Assembly: GCA_902766835.1 (NCBI GenBank)
Contig: CACXFC010000164.1
Location: forward strand, 1-46,753
Source of the DNA: an uncultured Coriobacteriaceae bacterium
GTDB taxonomy: Bacteria > Actinomycetota > Coriobacteriia > Coriobacteriales > Atopobiaceae
Length of the DNA: 46,753 nucleotides
Direction: 5' to 3'
The notes beneath the pieces were generated by a model, which was not told where the DNA came from, did not search any database, and saw only the letters and a list, made by a program, of their open reading frames with translations. The translations under genes were made by a program, and so were the position numbers. Positions 3,108 through 25,673 of the stretch are shown in pieces. Within the stretch, counting starts at the first letter, position 1. Every line of letters starts with the position of its first letter.

Positions 3108-5855
3108 ATGGCGACACGCAAGAAGACGAACAGCGGACGCGCAAAGCGCAATGCGCCACGCGGTGCCAAGGCACAGCGCCAGGCTATAGCCATGCCGCAG
3201 CTCGGCAGCACGGGCAACGACATCGCGGGCCTCGTGCTGGTGGTGCTTGCCGTGGCCATGATGGTCGCGCTGCAGATGCCCAGCTCGGCGCCGGTTACCT
3301 ATGTAACGGGCGAGGCGCTTGAGCTTCTGTTTGGTGCCGGTGCGATGCTCTTTCCCATCGTGCTGCTCGTCTTTGCGCTCACCTTCTTCATCGACAACGA
3401 GGAGCCCCTGTCAGGGCGCCTCGCCTTCGGGCTGACGCTCATCACGGTTTCCGTGCTGAGCATAGTCTCGATCACCTATCCCGGAGCGCAGCAGGACAGC
3501 TCGCTGGTGCTTGACCACAGCATCCTGCGCATGCGCGGAGGATATGTGGGCGGCGGCATCGCCTGGGCGCTGCTGCGCACGGTTGGGCGCGAGGTGGGCA
3601 TCGTCATCCTGGTTGGCGCCATCATCTGCGGCATTGTCATCTGCGGCTTCTCCATCTCCGACACCGTGAGGCGCGTGCGCGAGGGCATGGCGTCAATTGG
3701 CGAGTCCATCCATGGCGCCTCGGAGGACTTTCGCGCCCGTCGCGAGGAGCGCCGCGAGCGCCGCCTGGCCGAGCGCGAGGCCTATGAGGACTACGGGGCC
3801 TATGAGGATGACTACGACTTTGTGGACGAGCGGCCCTACGAGGAGCCGAAGACTACCTACATCGGTGCGCGTACCTCGACGGTTCTGACGCGCAACATTG
3901 CCGCGAAGAGCGAGCGTGCGGAGGCCGTGCAGCCGTCCGAGCCGCGCACCGTGCGCAGGGGCCCCGGAATTGGCGAGGCTGTCACCACGCTGATTCAACG
4001 TCACCTGCCCGTCTTCGACGACTATGACGACGAGTATGACGACTACGACGATTACGACGATGACTATGCGGACGATTTCGACTACGACGAACCCGTCGAG
4101 GAACCCGTGGTCGAGGCGCCGCGTGAGCCCGCCCGCACGCAAGCCGCACCTGCGAAGAAGGAAGAGGCCATCCCCGACTTCCTGCTCAAGAAGGAGCCTG
4201 AGCAGCCTGCGGTGACGCAGCGGAGGAAGACCACGAGGCGCGCCCCGGCAAAGACGGCTGCGGCGGCCTCCGCCTCGACGCAGAATGCGGGGAAGACCAT
4301 CGAGCCTGCGGCACCGCAGAAGATCAAGGACGCCAACGTCAAGGTCAAGAGCAGTGTGGCAACAAGCCGTCCGGGCGACGATGACGAGACCTACGACCTG
4401 CCGCCGCTCTCGATGCTCTCGTCCAACCCCCAGAGCGCCTCGAGTGCCAGCTCAAAGGCCGAGATCGACCAGACGATGGCGCGCCTGCAGGGTACGCTGC
4501 GCGAGTTTGGGCTTACGAGCCGCGTGGTCGACTACGTCTCGGGCCCGCTGGTCACCACCTTCCGCGTGGAGATGGGCGAGGGAGAGCGCGTCAACAAGAT
4601 CCGCAACCTCGAGGACGACATCGCCCTTACGCTTGCCGCCGAAAAGGTGCGTATCTTCGCGCCCATCGCGGGCACCTCGTACGTGGGCATCGAGATTCCT
4701 AACAAGACCAGGCAGAACGTGCATCTGGGCGATGTGCTGCCCTATGCGAAGGGCGGACCGCTCGAGGTTGCCATCGGCCGCGACTCGGCAGGCAAGCCCG
4801 TCATCGCCGACATCGCAAAGATGCCGCACATGCTGGTGGCAGGCACCACGGGTTCGGGCAAGTCGGTCATGATCAACTCCATGATCATGAGCCTGCTCAT
4901 GCGCGCCACCCCCAAGCAGGTGCGCCTGATCATGGTCGACCCAAAGCGCGTCGAGTTCAAGGGCTACAACGGCATCCCGCACCTCTATGTGCCCGTGGTC
5001 ACCGAGCCTCGTCAGGCGGCCAGCGCGCTGCAGTGGGCTGTCTCCGAGATGGAGCGTCGCCTGAAGGTGTTCGAGCGCGCGGGCGCCCGCAATATCACGG
5101 TATACAACGAGATGTGCACCACCGGCAAGCTCTCCGAGATGGACAATCCGCCCGAGCCGATGCCTTACCTTGTCATCGTGATCGACGAGCTCTCCGACCT
5201 TATGATGGTTGCGGGCAAGGATGTCGAGGCGTCAATCGTGCGCATCGCACAGCTGGCTCGTGCGGCGGGCATCCACCTTGTCATCGCAACGCAGCGCCCC
5301 TCGGCAAACGTGGTAACGGGCCTCATCAAGTCCAACATCGACAGTCGCGTGGCGCTGAAGGTCTCATCGGGCATCGATAGCCGCGTCATTCTGGACGAGA
5401 CCGGCGCCGACCGCCTTCTGGGCAACGGCGACATGCTCTTCAAGGACCGCGGCTTGGCTCCCAAGCGCGTGCTGGGTTGCTACACCTCTGACCCCGAGAT
5501 CGAGTCGGTTGTCGACTTCATCCGCGATCAGGGCGAGCCAGACTACCACGAGGAGATCCTCTCTGCCGTGGTTCCCGGCCAGCCCGGTGGCGGGGGAGCG
5601 GCTACGGTGGACGATGCCGATGACCCCCTCATCTGGGAGGCGGCGCAAATAGTCGTGGAATCTCAACTAGGTTCGACATCCGGGCTACAGCGCAGGCTCA
5701 AGGTTGGGTACGCTAGGGCTGGTAGGATAATGGACATGCTAGAGGCGAAGGGCGTAGTGGGCCCTGGCCAAGGTTCAAAGCCACGCGAGGTCCTGCTCGA
5801 CGAAGAGGGTCTTGAGGATCTCCGCGTGCAAGAAGAGAAGTATCGGGAGGTGTAA
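3108..5855 (+). CDS. ftsK: DNA translocase FtsK/SpoIIIE
   Basis: This 915-residue protein is a septum-anchored ATP-driven pump that moves chromosome termini through the closing septum. The N-terminal ~190 residues carry about four hydrophobic membrane segments after a basic start. A long linker follows, rich in Arg/Glu and then in Asp/Tyr repeats (near residues 305-325). The motor has the Walker A GTTGSGKSVM with its Lys at residue 585, the Walker B region LVIVIDELSDLMMV and the FtsK/SpoIIIE signature LARAAGIHLVIATQRPS. The C-terminal ~70 residues are the winged-helix gamma domain that reads polar DNA motifs. The ATG lies 3 bases after the rnj stop, so it is in the same operon. Confidence 0.95.
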   Translation: MATRKKTNSGRAKRNAPRGAKAQRQAIAMPQLGSTGNDIAGLVLVVLAVAMMVALQMPSSAPVTYVTGEALELLFGAGAMLFPIVLLVFALTFFIDNEEPLSGRLAFGLTLITVSVLSIVSITYPGAQQDSSLVLDHSILRMRGGYVGGGIAWALLRTVGREVGIVILVGAIICGIVICGFSISDTVRRVREGMASIGESIHGASEDFRARREERRERRLAEREAYEDYGAYEDDYDFVDERPYEEPKTTYIGARTSTVLTRNIAAKSERAEAVQPSEPRTVRRGPGIGEAVTTLIQRHLPVFDDYDDEYDDYDDYDDDYADDFDYDEPVEEPVVEAPREPARTQAAPAKKEEAIPDFLLKKEPEQPAVTQRRKTTRRAPAKTAAAASASTQNAGKTIEPAAPQKIKDANVKVKSSVATSRPGDDDETYDLPPLSMLSSNPQSASSASSKAEIDQTMARLQGTLREFGLTSRVVDYVSGPLVTTFRVEMGEGERVNKIRNLEDDIALTLAAEKVRIFAPIAGTSYVGIEIPNKTRQNVHLGDVLPYAKGGPLEVAIGRDSAGKPVIADIAKMPHMLVAGTTGSGKSVMINSMIMSLLMRATPKQVRLIMVDPKRVEFKGYNGIPHLYVPVVTEPRQAASALQWAVSEMERRLKVFERAGARNITVYNEMCTTGKLSEMDNPPEPMPYLVIVIDELSDLMMVAGKDVEASIVRIAQLARAAGIHLVIATQRPSANVVTGLIKSNIDSRVALKVSSGIDSRVILDETGADRLLGNGDMLFKDRGLAPKRVLGCYTSDPEIESVVDFIRDQGEPDYHEEILSAVVPGQPGGGGAATVDDADDPLIWEAAQIVVESQLGSTSGLQRRLKVGYARAGRIMDMLEAKGVVGPGQGSKPREVLLDEEGLEDLRVQEEKYREV

Positions 5856-22800: not shown

Positions 22801-23751
22801 ATGCTCGACGACAAGGTGTTCGATCTGGTCATCATCGGCGGCGGCCCGGCAGGGCTCTCTGCGGCAATCTATGCGCAGCGCGCGATGCTCGATAGCGTTC
22901 TGCTGGAGCAGGAGGCCGTTGGCGGTCAGGTCATCATCACAAGCGACATCGACAACTATCCTGGCGTACCGCAGACTGATGGATTCTCGCTGATTGAGAC
23001 CATGCAGCGTCAGGCGGAAGGCCTGGGCGCTCGCATCATCCTCTCTAATGCCGAAAAGGTCATTCACGACGAGGAGACTGGCCTGTTTGAGGTTCGCACG
23101 CCTGAGGGCACGATCATGACCAAGACGGTCATCGCCTCGGGAGGCGCCACGCCGCGCCGCGCCGGGTTCAAGGGCGAAAAGGAGTTCGTGGGCCATGGCG
23201 TGTCGTATTGCGCCACTTGCGATGGAATGTTCTATCGCGGCAAGAAGGTCTATGTCATTGGCGGCGGAAACTCTGCCTGCGAGGAGGCGCTCTTCCTGAC
23301 GCGCTTTGCCGACCAGGTCGACGTCATCGTCCGTAAGGACCACCTGCGCGCGCAGGCTGTCGTGGGCAAGCAGCTTGAGGAGAACCCCAAGGTAAACATC
23401 AGGTACCTGACGAGTGTCGTGGCTGTTGACGGCAACACGATGCTGAAGTCGGTCACGCTTCGCAACAACGAGACGGGCGAGACCTACGTTGAGGAGTATG
23501 ACGAGGGCGGCTTTGGCGTCTTCGTCTTCGTGGGGCGCGTTCCCGCATCCCAGCTCCTTGAGGGGCTCGTGGAGCTTGACGATGCTGGCTACGTCATTGC
23601 CAACGAGCGCATGGCCACCAAGACGCCGGGTCTGTATGTTGCCGGCGACATCCGCCAGAAGCCGCTCCGTCAGATTGTAACGGCTGCGGCAGATGGCGCT
23701 GTGGCCGCCACGAGCGTCTCTGCCTATCTCGGGCATCCGGTTGAGGGCTAG
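22801..23751 (+). CDS. trxB: Thioredoxin reductase
   Basis: This 316-residue FAD/NADPH flavoenzyme reduces thioredoxin. The FAD-binding motif is IIGGGPAGLSAAIYA, the redox-active dithiol is CATC within SYCATCDGMFYRGK, and the NADPH-binding motif is VIGGGNSACEEALFL. LYVAGDIRQKPLRQIVTAAADG is the second FAD contact. GAAAGGGG precedes the ATG. It is a single-gene unit; no thioredoxin gene is adjacent in this window. Confidence 0.96.
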   Translation: MLDDKVFDLVIIGGGPAGLSAAIYAQRAMLDSVLLEQEAVGGQVIITSDIDNYPGVPQTDGFSLIETMQRQAEGLGARIILSNAEKVIHDEETGLFEVRTPEGTIMTKTVIASGGATPRRAGFKGEKEFVGHGVSYCATCDGMFYRGKKVYVIGGGNSACEEALFLTRFADQVDVIVRKDHLRAQAVVGKQLEENPKVNIRYLTSVVAVDGNTMLKSVTLRNNETGETYVEEYDEGGFGVFVFVGRVPASQLLEGLVELDDAGYVIANERMATKTPGLYVAGDIRQKPLRQIVTAAADGAVAATSVSAYLGHPVEG

Positions 23752-23781
23752 GCTTAGCAACAAGAAATTCTCGTTTAGCTT

Positions 23782-23831
23782 AAGGGACACGTCCTTTTAG
23801 CCTCTCAAGGCGAAATAGGGCGTGCCCTTTT
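23782..23831. repeat. REP-like inverted repeat, copy 1 (degenerate)
   Basis: AAGGGACACGTCCTTTT (23782-23798) is an imperfect inverse of AAATAGGGCGTGCCCTTTT (23813-23831). It shares the AAGGGACACG core with the copies at 26935, 38651 and 46532. It lies 30 bases after trxB and ends in a T-run, so it may serve as the trxB terminator. Confidence 0.7.
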
Positions 23832-23860
23832 GTCATCGCGCAAAAGATTCGTTCTATATT

Positions 23861-23975
23861 GAGGTATCAGAACCCATTGAGAACCAAAACGGGGCCTTAA
23901 ATCGGCTCTCAGAGCCTCGTAGGGTTTTACCTGCGGTTTTATAGCTACCGCAACGATAAGCCTGTTAGATACCTC
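23861..23975 (+). ncRNA. Candidate structured non-coding RNA (three-way junction)
   Basis: In the gap between convergent trxB and the ClC gene, GAGGTATC (23861-23868) pairs perfectly with GATACCTC (23968-23975). Inside, AGAACCC (23869-23875) pairs with GGGTTTT (23922-23928) with one G-U. TGAGA (23878-23882) pairs with TCTCA (23907-23911), extended by GCC/GGC. TGCGGT (23932-23937) pairs with ACCGCA (23947-23952). Together these give a closing helix and two internal arms. There is no coding potential. I do not recognise it as a known riboswitch, tmRNA, 6S or SRP RNA. Strand is assumed to be +, because pairing is equally possible on both. The remaining bases of the 287-bp gap hold only REP copy 1. 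Confidence 0.5.
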
Positions 23976-24038
23976 TTATAAAACCGTGATAATATATCTT
24001 ATGTAAAGTAAGCATCTCTCATCCCAAAGTGATTCACG

Positions 24039-25673
24039 CTACGCCTTCCCCTCCTGCGCACCGCTTCCAACTCCCGTCGAGAGCCCGCGACACAACCCCG
24101 TGAGCAAAAGCTGTGTGTCGGCTTCGAGATCCGAGTCCATGATGATGAGCAATTGGTCGAGCGCCTGCAGCTGCGTGGTGCCGCGCGGTATGACACGCTG
24201 GCCCGCTCGGTCGATGGTGACCACGAGCGTGTTCTTCGGCCAAGGCACATCCTTGATCTGGCGACCCTCGGCCAGGCTTCCCACACCTACCACATGCGTG
24301 TGCAAGACCTTGCTACCCTCAACCTCAACGTTACTTGAGCCTTCAGGTTCGGGAAGTTTAGCTAGAAGGTCGCTCAGAAGCTTCTCGTAGAACGGCTCAA
24401 CGTCCATGAGGTTTGCCGTCACATAGGCAACAAGCGCCACGGCCGTTGCGGCCAACAACGTGTCGAGCGTACCGGTGAGCTCGAAACACAGGACCACGGC
24501 AGTCACGGGCGCACGCACCGAACCGGCAAACATGCCGGCTACTCCCAGTACGATGAAGTTATTTAGATACGTTAGGGGCACATCTGTTGCACCAACCGCC
24601 GCGAGGCCGCATAAGGTGCCCACCAGAGAGCCCATGATGACCAGCGGCAGCAAGGTGCCGCCCGGGGCTCCCGTGCCAAAGCAGATGCCCGTAAAGAGGT
24701 ATTTGCCCACAAGAAGCGCCCCTACCATGGCAAAGGTCAATCCCCTGCCACTCTCAAGGTACGCAATAATCGCATCGCCACCGCACAGGAGCTGCGGAAA
24801 CGTGAAGGTTGCAACGCCAGCGCACAGGAAGGCAATGAGCAAGACGCCGTCACCCATGCGCTTCCTGAGCCTTCCAAAGACCTGTTCCTGCAGCGCGAAC
24901 ATCCCAAGGTTGTGTAGGGCGCCCAGGATGCCGCAGATGAGGCCCATGAGGAGCACAAAGCCATAGTCAACGTGAGGCAGGTCTCCTACCAGCGAAAAGT
25001 GGAGAACGGGTTCTATGCCAAGCACGTGGGAGCACACGAAGTCGGCCATGGAGGCCGCCGTCATGACAGAGATGACCAGAGGCGCGTTGAACTCCCGGTG
25101 AATCTCCTCCAGGGCAAACAAGACGCCGGTAAGCGGCGCGTGGAAGGCTGCCGACATGCCTGCCGCAGCCCCACAGGTGACCAGAACGTGCTCCTCGCCC
25201 TGCTTCTTGCCAAACAGGCGGCTGACGCCCTTGCCAGCCATGCCGCCCAGCAGCACCGAGGGGCCCTCGCGGCCCAGGGAAAGGCCTGATAGCGTGCAGA
25301 GAACGCCCTCGACGAACTTTATGGCTATCACGCGTGCCCAAGCCATATCAAGGCGACCGGTGACCTCGGCATCAATCTGCGGAATGCCCGATCCGCGCGT
25401 GTCCGGCTCATATTGCATAAGACGTGCTATGACGACAGAGAATACCGCCAACGCGAGAAACCACCCGCCAGCGGCAAGGGCGTGGCCACTCATCATGTCG
25501 ATGAGGCTTCGGAGCGTTCGCTCGGCGGTTGCCAGTGAGAATCGGTAGCCCGTTATGATGAGGCCTACGGCTATGCCCACGAGCGCCCCTTCGCCCACCA
25601 TATCCACCTGGAAGCGACGTGAGAAATGTCGCTCGATGGACTCCCGATCAGACGCCGCATGTTGGCCTACCAC
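24039..25673 (-). CDS. ClC family chloride channel/transporter with TrkA-C domain
   Basis: This 544-residue membrane protein has ~10 hydrophobic segments and the ClC filter motifs GSGIPQ (residues 94-99), GREGPSV (134-140, with the gating glutamate) and GTGAPGGTLLPL. GSGIP with Ser indicates chloride rather than the fluoride-specific branch. The last ~75 residues resemble a cytoplasmic TrkA-C (RCK_C) ligand-binding domain (HVVGVGSLAEGRQIKDVPWP). It starts at GTG 25673 with GGGGAG upstream; an internal ATG at codon 25 is less well supported. It could be an exchanger helping acid or anion balance. It is a single gene with no obvious partner. Confidence 0.92.
   Translation of the reverse strand: MVGQHAASDRESIERHFSRRFQVDMVGEGALVGIAVGLIITGYRFSLATAERTLRSLIDMMSGHALAAGGWFLALAVFSVVIARLMQYEPDTRGSGIPQIDAEVTGRLDMAWARVIAIKFVEGVLCTLSGLSLGREGPSVLLGGMAGKGVSRLFGKKQGEEHVLVTCGAAAGMSAAFHAPLTGVLFALEEIHREFNAPLVISVMTAASMADFVCSHVLGIEPVLHFSLVGDLPHVDYGFVLLMGLICGILGALHNLGMFALQEQVFGRLRKRMGDGVLLIAFLCAGVATFTFPQLLCGGDAIIAYLESGRGLTFAMVGALLVGKYLFTGICFGTGAPGGTLLPLVIMGSLVGTLCGLAAVGATDVPLTYLNNFIVLGVAGMFAGSVRAPVTAVVLCFELTGTLDTLLAATAVALVAYVTANLMDVEPFYEKLLSDLLAKLPEPEGSSNVEVEGSKVLHTHVVGVGSLAEGRQIKDVPWPKNTLVVTIDRAGQRVIPRGTTQLQALDQLLIIMDSDLEADTQLLLTGLCRGLSTGVGSGAQEGKA

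Follow-up and report, generated by a model that had tools for sequence, protein, structure and literature searches.

A conserved sequence element near dif in Coriobacteriia, tentatively read as a protein-binding DNA site

To our knowledge, the chromosomal dif site, at which joined sister chromosomes are separated, is usually described as a 28-bp site that is governed by FtsK and has no accessory DNA. Replication-terminus systems built on short, protein-bound DNA sites include matS with MatP, Ter with Tus, and the ter sites of RTP. The element described here differs from these in being essentially single-copy at dif, and proteins of the RTP, MatP, and Tus types were each found in 0 of 30 relatives, with positive controls. 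It resembles the accessory sequences of the cer (ColE1) and psi (pSC101) sites, in which DNA adjoining the XerCD site is bound by host proteins, but it lies beside chromosomal dif rather than at a plasmid site, and its spacing of 44–882 bp contrasts with the fixed spacing of about 180 bp in cer and psi. According to an excerpt of PMC5357621, cer also encodes a 70-nt RNA, Rcd. The IS1202-family insertion sequences, which target dif, similarly lie near its XerC side (PMC10132070, in excerpt), but they are 1.5-kb transposons with terminal repeats, whereas the element covers 65–85 bp and has no transposase. Literature searches on dif or XerC in Eggerthella or Coriobacteri- had nothing on the element among the papers listed, and those on structured RNA in Eggerthella listed nothing fitting; the element could be among the thousands of candidates of PMC8040213.

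The window, meaning the whole stretch of 46,753 nucleotides that was analysed, carries the following features at this locus.

22801–23751, + strand: trxB, thioredoxin reductase type (Pyr_redox_2), the upstream convergent neighbour
23857–23921, + strand: the conserved element (S1, spacer, and core), as matched by the sequence-only model R1
23861–23877, + strand: S1, a pseudo-palindromic sub-site, GAGGTATCAGAACCCAT, aligned with relatives
23861–23975, + strand: the fold of the first-pass annotation, with its outer helix at 23861–23868 / 23968–23975
23892–23920, + strand: the 29-bp core, GGGCCTTAAATCGGCTCTCAGAGCCTCGT, used for pattern searches in relatives
23927–23944, + strand: the 18-mer TTACCTGCGGTTTTATAG, identical to an 18-mer directly 3′ of the core in the phage copy L257/L292
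23934–23986, no strand: a 10-bp inverted repeat, CGGTTTTATA (23934–23943) and TATAAAACCG (23977–23986), the right arm of which overlaps the XerC side of dif
23982–24009 (about), + strand: chromosomal dif, with XerC arm AACCGTGATAA, centre TATATC, and XerD arm TTATGTAAAGT, the arm borders following what we take to be the usual dif layout
24039–25673, − strand: a ClC-type channel gene with a TrkA_C domain (Voltage_CLC), the downstream convergent neighbour

The first-pass annotation had proposed an undescribed structured RNA at 23861–23975. It placed this feature correctly between the convergent trxB and ClC genes, and an undescribed conserved feature without an Rfam match does exist at this spot; it overlooked the dif site directly downstream. 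We read 23857–23921 instead as a cis-acting, putative protein-binding DNA element acting at the chromosome terminus together with Xer/dif, to which we assign a probability of about 45%. This reading draws on sequence conservation, linkage to dif, constraint within a gene, and the lack of a shared fold. A sequence-specific host protein would occupy S1 in dimeric form and the core as a phased array. The resulting complex might act with Xer/dif at the terminus, where it would anchor, order, or restrain the region ahead of dimer resolution or while it takes place. The element would be an accessory part of dif rather than a required one, since several lineages keep dif without it, and some phages and plasmid-like elements carrying a variant may use the same host protein. 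We consider it unlikely that the element goes further and forms a dedicated accessory nucleoprotein site for the terminus, beside chromosomal dif, that can overlap a protein gene and has been copied by phages and plasmids for the same host protein. A conserved companion of dif in an order of common gut bacteria, constrained even within a gene and shared with mobile DNA, would open a tractable question on terminus handling in Actinomycetota, and the element supplies an exact bait sequence for finding its protein.

What is conserved at 23857–23921 is primary sequence, namely the pseudo-palindrome S1, a spacer of 14–15 bp, and the 29-bp core, and 68 elements could be aligned in this order. This set was hand-chosen at about one element per genome, omitting most copies in FAD genes and the weakest copies. 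The forms of S1 in relatives include ATGAGTATTTACTCAT, ATGACCTAGGAGTCAT, and ATGGGTAAATACTCAT. The core can be read as 10-bp units, CTTAAATCGG / CTCTCAGAGC / CTCGT, but this repeat idea was only partly borne out; the 10-bp phasing was evident in variants only, and over all 68 elements the value at lag 12 (0.427) exceeded that at lag 10 (0.392). The inner 15 bp of the 18-mer 3′ of the core are the reverse complement of TATAAAACCGCAGGT, which is found 3′ of the core in several Eggerthellaceae. The remaining stretches of the same intergenic region were not conserved. Model R1, which was built from the window and 67 relatives, so that their scores are partly by construction, gave a single match in its own genome (E 1.3e-14).

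When the whole intergenic region was the query, most relatives matched at dif and a few at the core. The 29-bp core was present in 13 of 140 family genomes, and of 347 genomes from the order, 63 carried a match to a 25-mer pattern with up to 2 mismatches (0 when the pattern was reversed); core patterns read backwards likewise gave 0 matches. An exact scan with one genome per species returned 21 stretches, 16 of which carried names from Coriobacteriia (Atopobiaceae, Coriobacteriaceae, Eggerthella, Gordonibacter, Adlercreutzia, Denitrobacterium, and kin), the other five being two Candidatus Aphodovivens, two with vaguer names, and one labelled Bacillota. In Eggerthellaceae the match was gap-free over about 80 bp, and a position-weight scan near dif revealed weaker forms in further Atopobiaceae. 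The element is kept in Eggerthellaceae and part of Atopobiaceae; these two group names rest on named matching records, and we infer the other group names. R1 matched in 107 of 297 genomes, although many of the weak matches may be chance. No conserved non-coding block was found near dif in the Atopobiaceae lineages g4, g54, g7, g19, g45, g50, and g16/17, in which dif is present.

The identity of dif itself was supported by a 23-bp pattern, GATAATATATCTTATGTAAAGTA, which allowing up to 2 mismatches occurred in 109 of 140 family genomes, nearly always as one copy (two of the 109 had two dif places), and which when reversed had 0 matches in the same 140 genomes. The site at 23982–24009 occurs at about one copy per chromosome, and XerC, XerD, and FtsK-gamma are all encoded in this genome, the last inside the window at 5616–5798. 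It resembles a suggested Frankia dif quoted in an excerpt of PMC3025954. The gap from the conserved 25-mer to dif is 92 bp in the window. Across the order, the 25-mer pattern found 67 places, 64 of which were taken for the linkage count, and 47 of these 64 strict core copies had a dif-like site (up to 4 mismatches) within 1.45 kb. Core and dif-like site agreed in strand in 47/47 cases, and the core lay upstream, on the XerC side, in 46/47, at distances of 44–882 bp, with one at −117; no dif-like sites occurred in 365 kb of reversed sequence. In two further strict copies dif lay at +134 and +570 with 5 mismatches, in another at +2405 with 3 mismatches, and no dif-like site was found near the remaining 14; the 17 copies not among the 47 also include apparent chance coding matches as well as unexplained ones. 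As the distance varies from 44 to 882 bp, there is no fixed geometry between element and dif. Linkage to dif also held where the element sits on the opposite side of the site (L178, L082), where it is inverted in the trxB–dif interval (L169, L171), and where the neighbouring genes differ (L062). There are also second copies a long way from dif. In genome G008, two dif-like sites lie 719 bp apart with an element between them (L175, 299–321 and 1018–1040).

The element is found between genes, within 5′ leaders, and also in a gene for a FAD enzyme. The core lies antisense inside a FAD_binding_2-type gene in eight genomes (L173, L174, L175, L011, L013, L017, L020, and L047), and in those loci the FAD genes adjoin dif. 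The same-codon fraction among the eight genes was 0.906 at the core and 0.474 over the whole gene, and only 2 of 144 windows reached the core value. Of 12 loci, 8 entered the test; in the remaining 4, no FAD-type ORF spans the core. Because the codons at the core are unusually fixed in the FAD gene, we interpret the core as a DNA site that is under selection.

Concerning its possible partner, S1 resembles in length and spacing what we take to be the ARG box. ArgR was present in 116 of 140 family genomes and was not found in the element carriers G103 and G078, both incomplete assemblies; by presence and absence, ArgR does not appear to be required as a partner.

The fold that had suggested an RNA is real in this genome. 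Its 8-bp outer helix is perfect, GAGGTATC (23861–23868) being fully complementary to GATACCTC (23968–23975), and the + strand of 23861–23975 folds at −37.8 kcal/mol with a z of −3.44 (0 of 200 shuffles as good), the − strand giving a z of −2.44 (3 of 200). A z of −3.4 or below was reached in 22 of 1556 115-nt windows over the whole stretch, or about 1 in 70, in a scan with 30 shuffles in which the target itself scored −3.25. At least one perfect 8-bp inverted repeat arose in 40% of shuffles of the intergenic region, and four inverted-repeat seeds, the observed number, in 2%. The minimum free energy structure is multibranched and includes the outer helix, but a conserved three-way junction was not confirmed: the outer helix was found in 1 of 68, this genome only, and the outer helices of the others were at chance level, with a mean of 5.0 bp vs 4.8 bp in shuffles. 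RNAalifold gave no consensus structure for the 68-sequence alignment, so the structured-RNA reading was not supported; with 20 of these relatives it gave 14 pairs, of which one was compensatory, and the covariation term was unfavourable. The mean folding z was −1.25 (+) and −1.02 (−) in the 43 Eggerthellaceae-type relatives and −0.61 (+) and −0.53 (−) in the 25 others, with values below −2 in 11/68 relatives on the + strand and 10/68 on the − strand. Since the means were near-identical for + and − in both groups, both strands fold almost equally.

The covariance analysis of relatives that the first-pass annotation had suggested thus found no consensus fold, yet it did show that two short palindromes, in S1 and in the core hairpin, covary symmetrically above the level of shuffles (0.183 vs 0.149; 0 of 500 shuffles as high). 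Such covariation would be expected for RNA hairpins and for dimer-binding DNA sites alike, and because some of it exists, an RNA function for the element is only weakened. The element is better read as a cis-acting DNA site than as a gene for a folded RNA. The suggested Rfam search found 0 families at gathering score in the window, and none at that level in 40 relative loci except one tRNA. The best sub-threshold match, drum RNA (RF02958), was a weak full-length likeness on the right strand at 16.8 bits against a cut-off of 43 bits; it was rejected, being below the cut-off with no relative at the gathering threshold.

A fairly unlikely alternative is that the element is an sRNA or RNA leader conserved mainly in sequence, possibly an attenuator or the 3′ end of an sRNA, in which the core hairpin GGCTC-TCA-GAGCC followed by TCGTTT would form a weak terminator and GGGCC/GGCTC an alternative hairpin. 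In 89.9% of cells the core hairpin is paired, and 2 of its 5 pairs show both-sided changes, as do 5 of 6 pairs in S1; the alternative hairpin pairs in 87.2%, but its covariation was not above that of shuffles. Against this alternative, there is no consensus fold, z is near −1 and equal on both strands, and the core hairpin is lost in variants such as L169, L171, L062, and L184. The look of an intrinsic terminator comes from a 5-bp hairpin followed by just 3–4 T at most loci, the T run being long in few only (L074, L075, and L019). A promoter is suggested by a TTGTCA-19-TATATT pair read from the sequence directly 5′ of S1 in the window and by an extended −10 box at a fixed distance of −75 to −85 upstream in 11 of 20 Eggerthellaceae loci, but by eye no promoter was seen outside Eggerthellaceae. 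A promoter-driven RNA was disfavoured, as in Eggerthellaceae the −10 box tracks a small ORF and not the element: the box is missing in all 4 loci without this small membrane-protein ORF (L094, L095, L096, and L116), where the element is retained, and in 5 of the 20 loci the ORF is present and the box absent. The ORF itself, membrane-protein-like and ending in ..WG, lies between element and dif in many Eggerthellaceae (L097 1578–2051 and equivalents) and had no Pfam match.

We regard it as improbable that the element is instead what remains of an ancient mobile element, or its attachment site, for example of a phage family that integrates near dif, which became fixed in the chromosome and is decaying. 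The first-pass annotation had named a match to a mobile-element end as evidence against its RNA, and related copies on phages and plasmid-like DNA bear on this point. Among 40 further R1 loci, dif lay within the locus in 7. Prophages, phages, and plasmid-like DNA bear weaker copies, found beside a phage integrase (L251 and L282, by Pfam), an endolysin-type amidase (L257 by Pfam, L282 by eye), or ParA (L252, by Pfam), and within a prim-pol gene (L269, by Pfam). The IMG/VR contigs L291 and L292 carry the variant in which the second unit is CTTAGAACGG or CTTACAACGG; in L291 it precedes, by our reading, holin- and lysozyme-like genes, and L293 carries a partial copy. In two genomes of one genus the element also lies in frame within rsmG, and in a genome from a different genus it lies just 3′ of that gene; parS or parA genes are nearby. 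A remnant is argued against by the frozen codons of the FAD gene and the retention beside dif in two families, which point to a host function. Furthermore, the contexts of the loci examined showed no identical direct repeats flanking a prophage, and the main chromosomal form with part of its context was not found in two scans of viral contigs; no plasmid records matched the phage-type copy.

The first viral scan gave six core-like matches judged to be chance or unrelated. An exact 24-bp core match in 11 related Mycobacterium phage records (E 9e-3), located in phage Bongo (L294 1501–1524) in unannotated DNA near the genome end, was also probably chance, S1 being absent by eye. The rsmG loci L031, L079, and L034 are second copies of the element, the first two with an inverted partial core upstream (by eye). 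L271 and L272 (G106, contig C138) are identical stretches of about 3 kb separated by 47 kb, and so may belong to a circular phage or plasmid that carries the element.

That the locus is an ordinary intergenic stretch, folded by chance and conserved through inherited gene order, is very improbable: equally good folds arise in about 1 in 70 windows, yet the borders of the fold were picked by the first-pass annotation, and the trxB/dut–dif–ClC order is widely kept, but the rest of the intergenic region is unconserved, neighbouring genera that share this gene order lack any conserved block at that place, the backward pattern controls gave 0 matches, and the occurrence of the core across the order, its linkage to dif, and the frozen codons contradict it.

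Readings as CRISPR/tracr or as a MITE were also weighed on the basis of the sequence; no further copy of the element was found in this genome. Upstream of the element, 23780–23829 is an inverted, terminator-like and REP-like repeat that occurs at about 40 places in this genome, with 77 one-strand matches besides the window's own, and it was set aside as a separate repeat.
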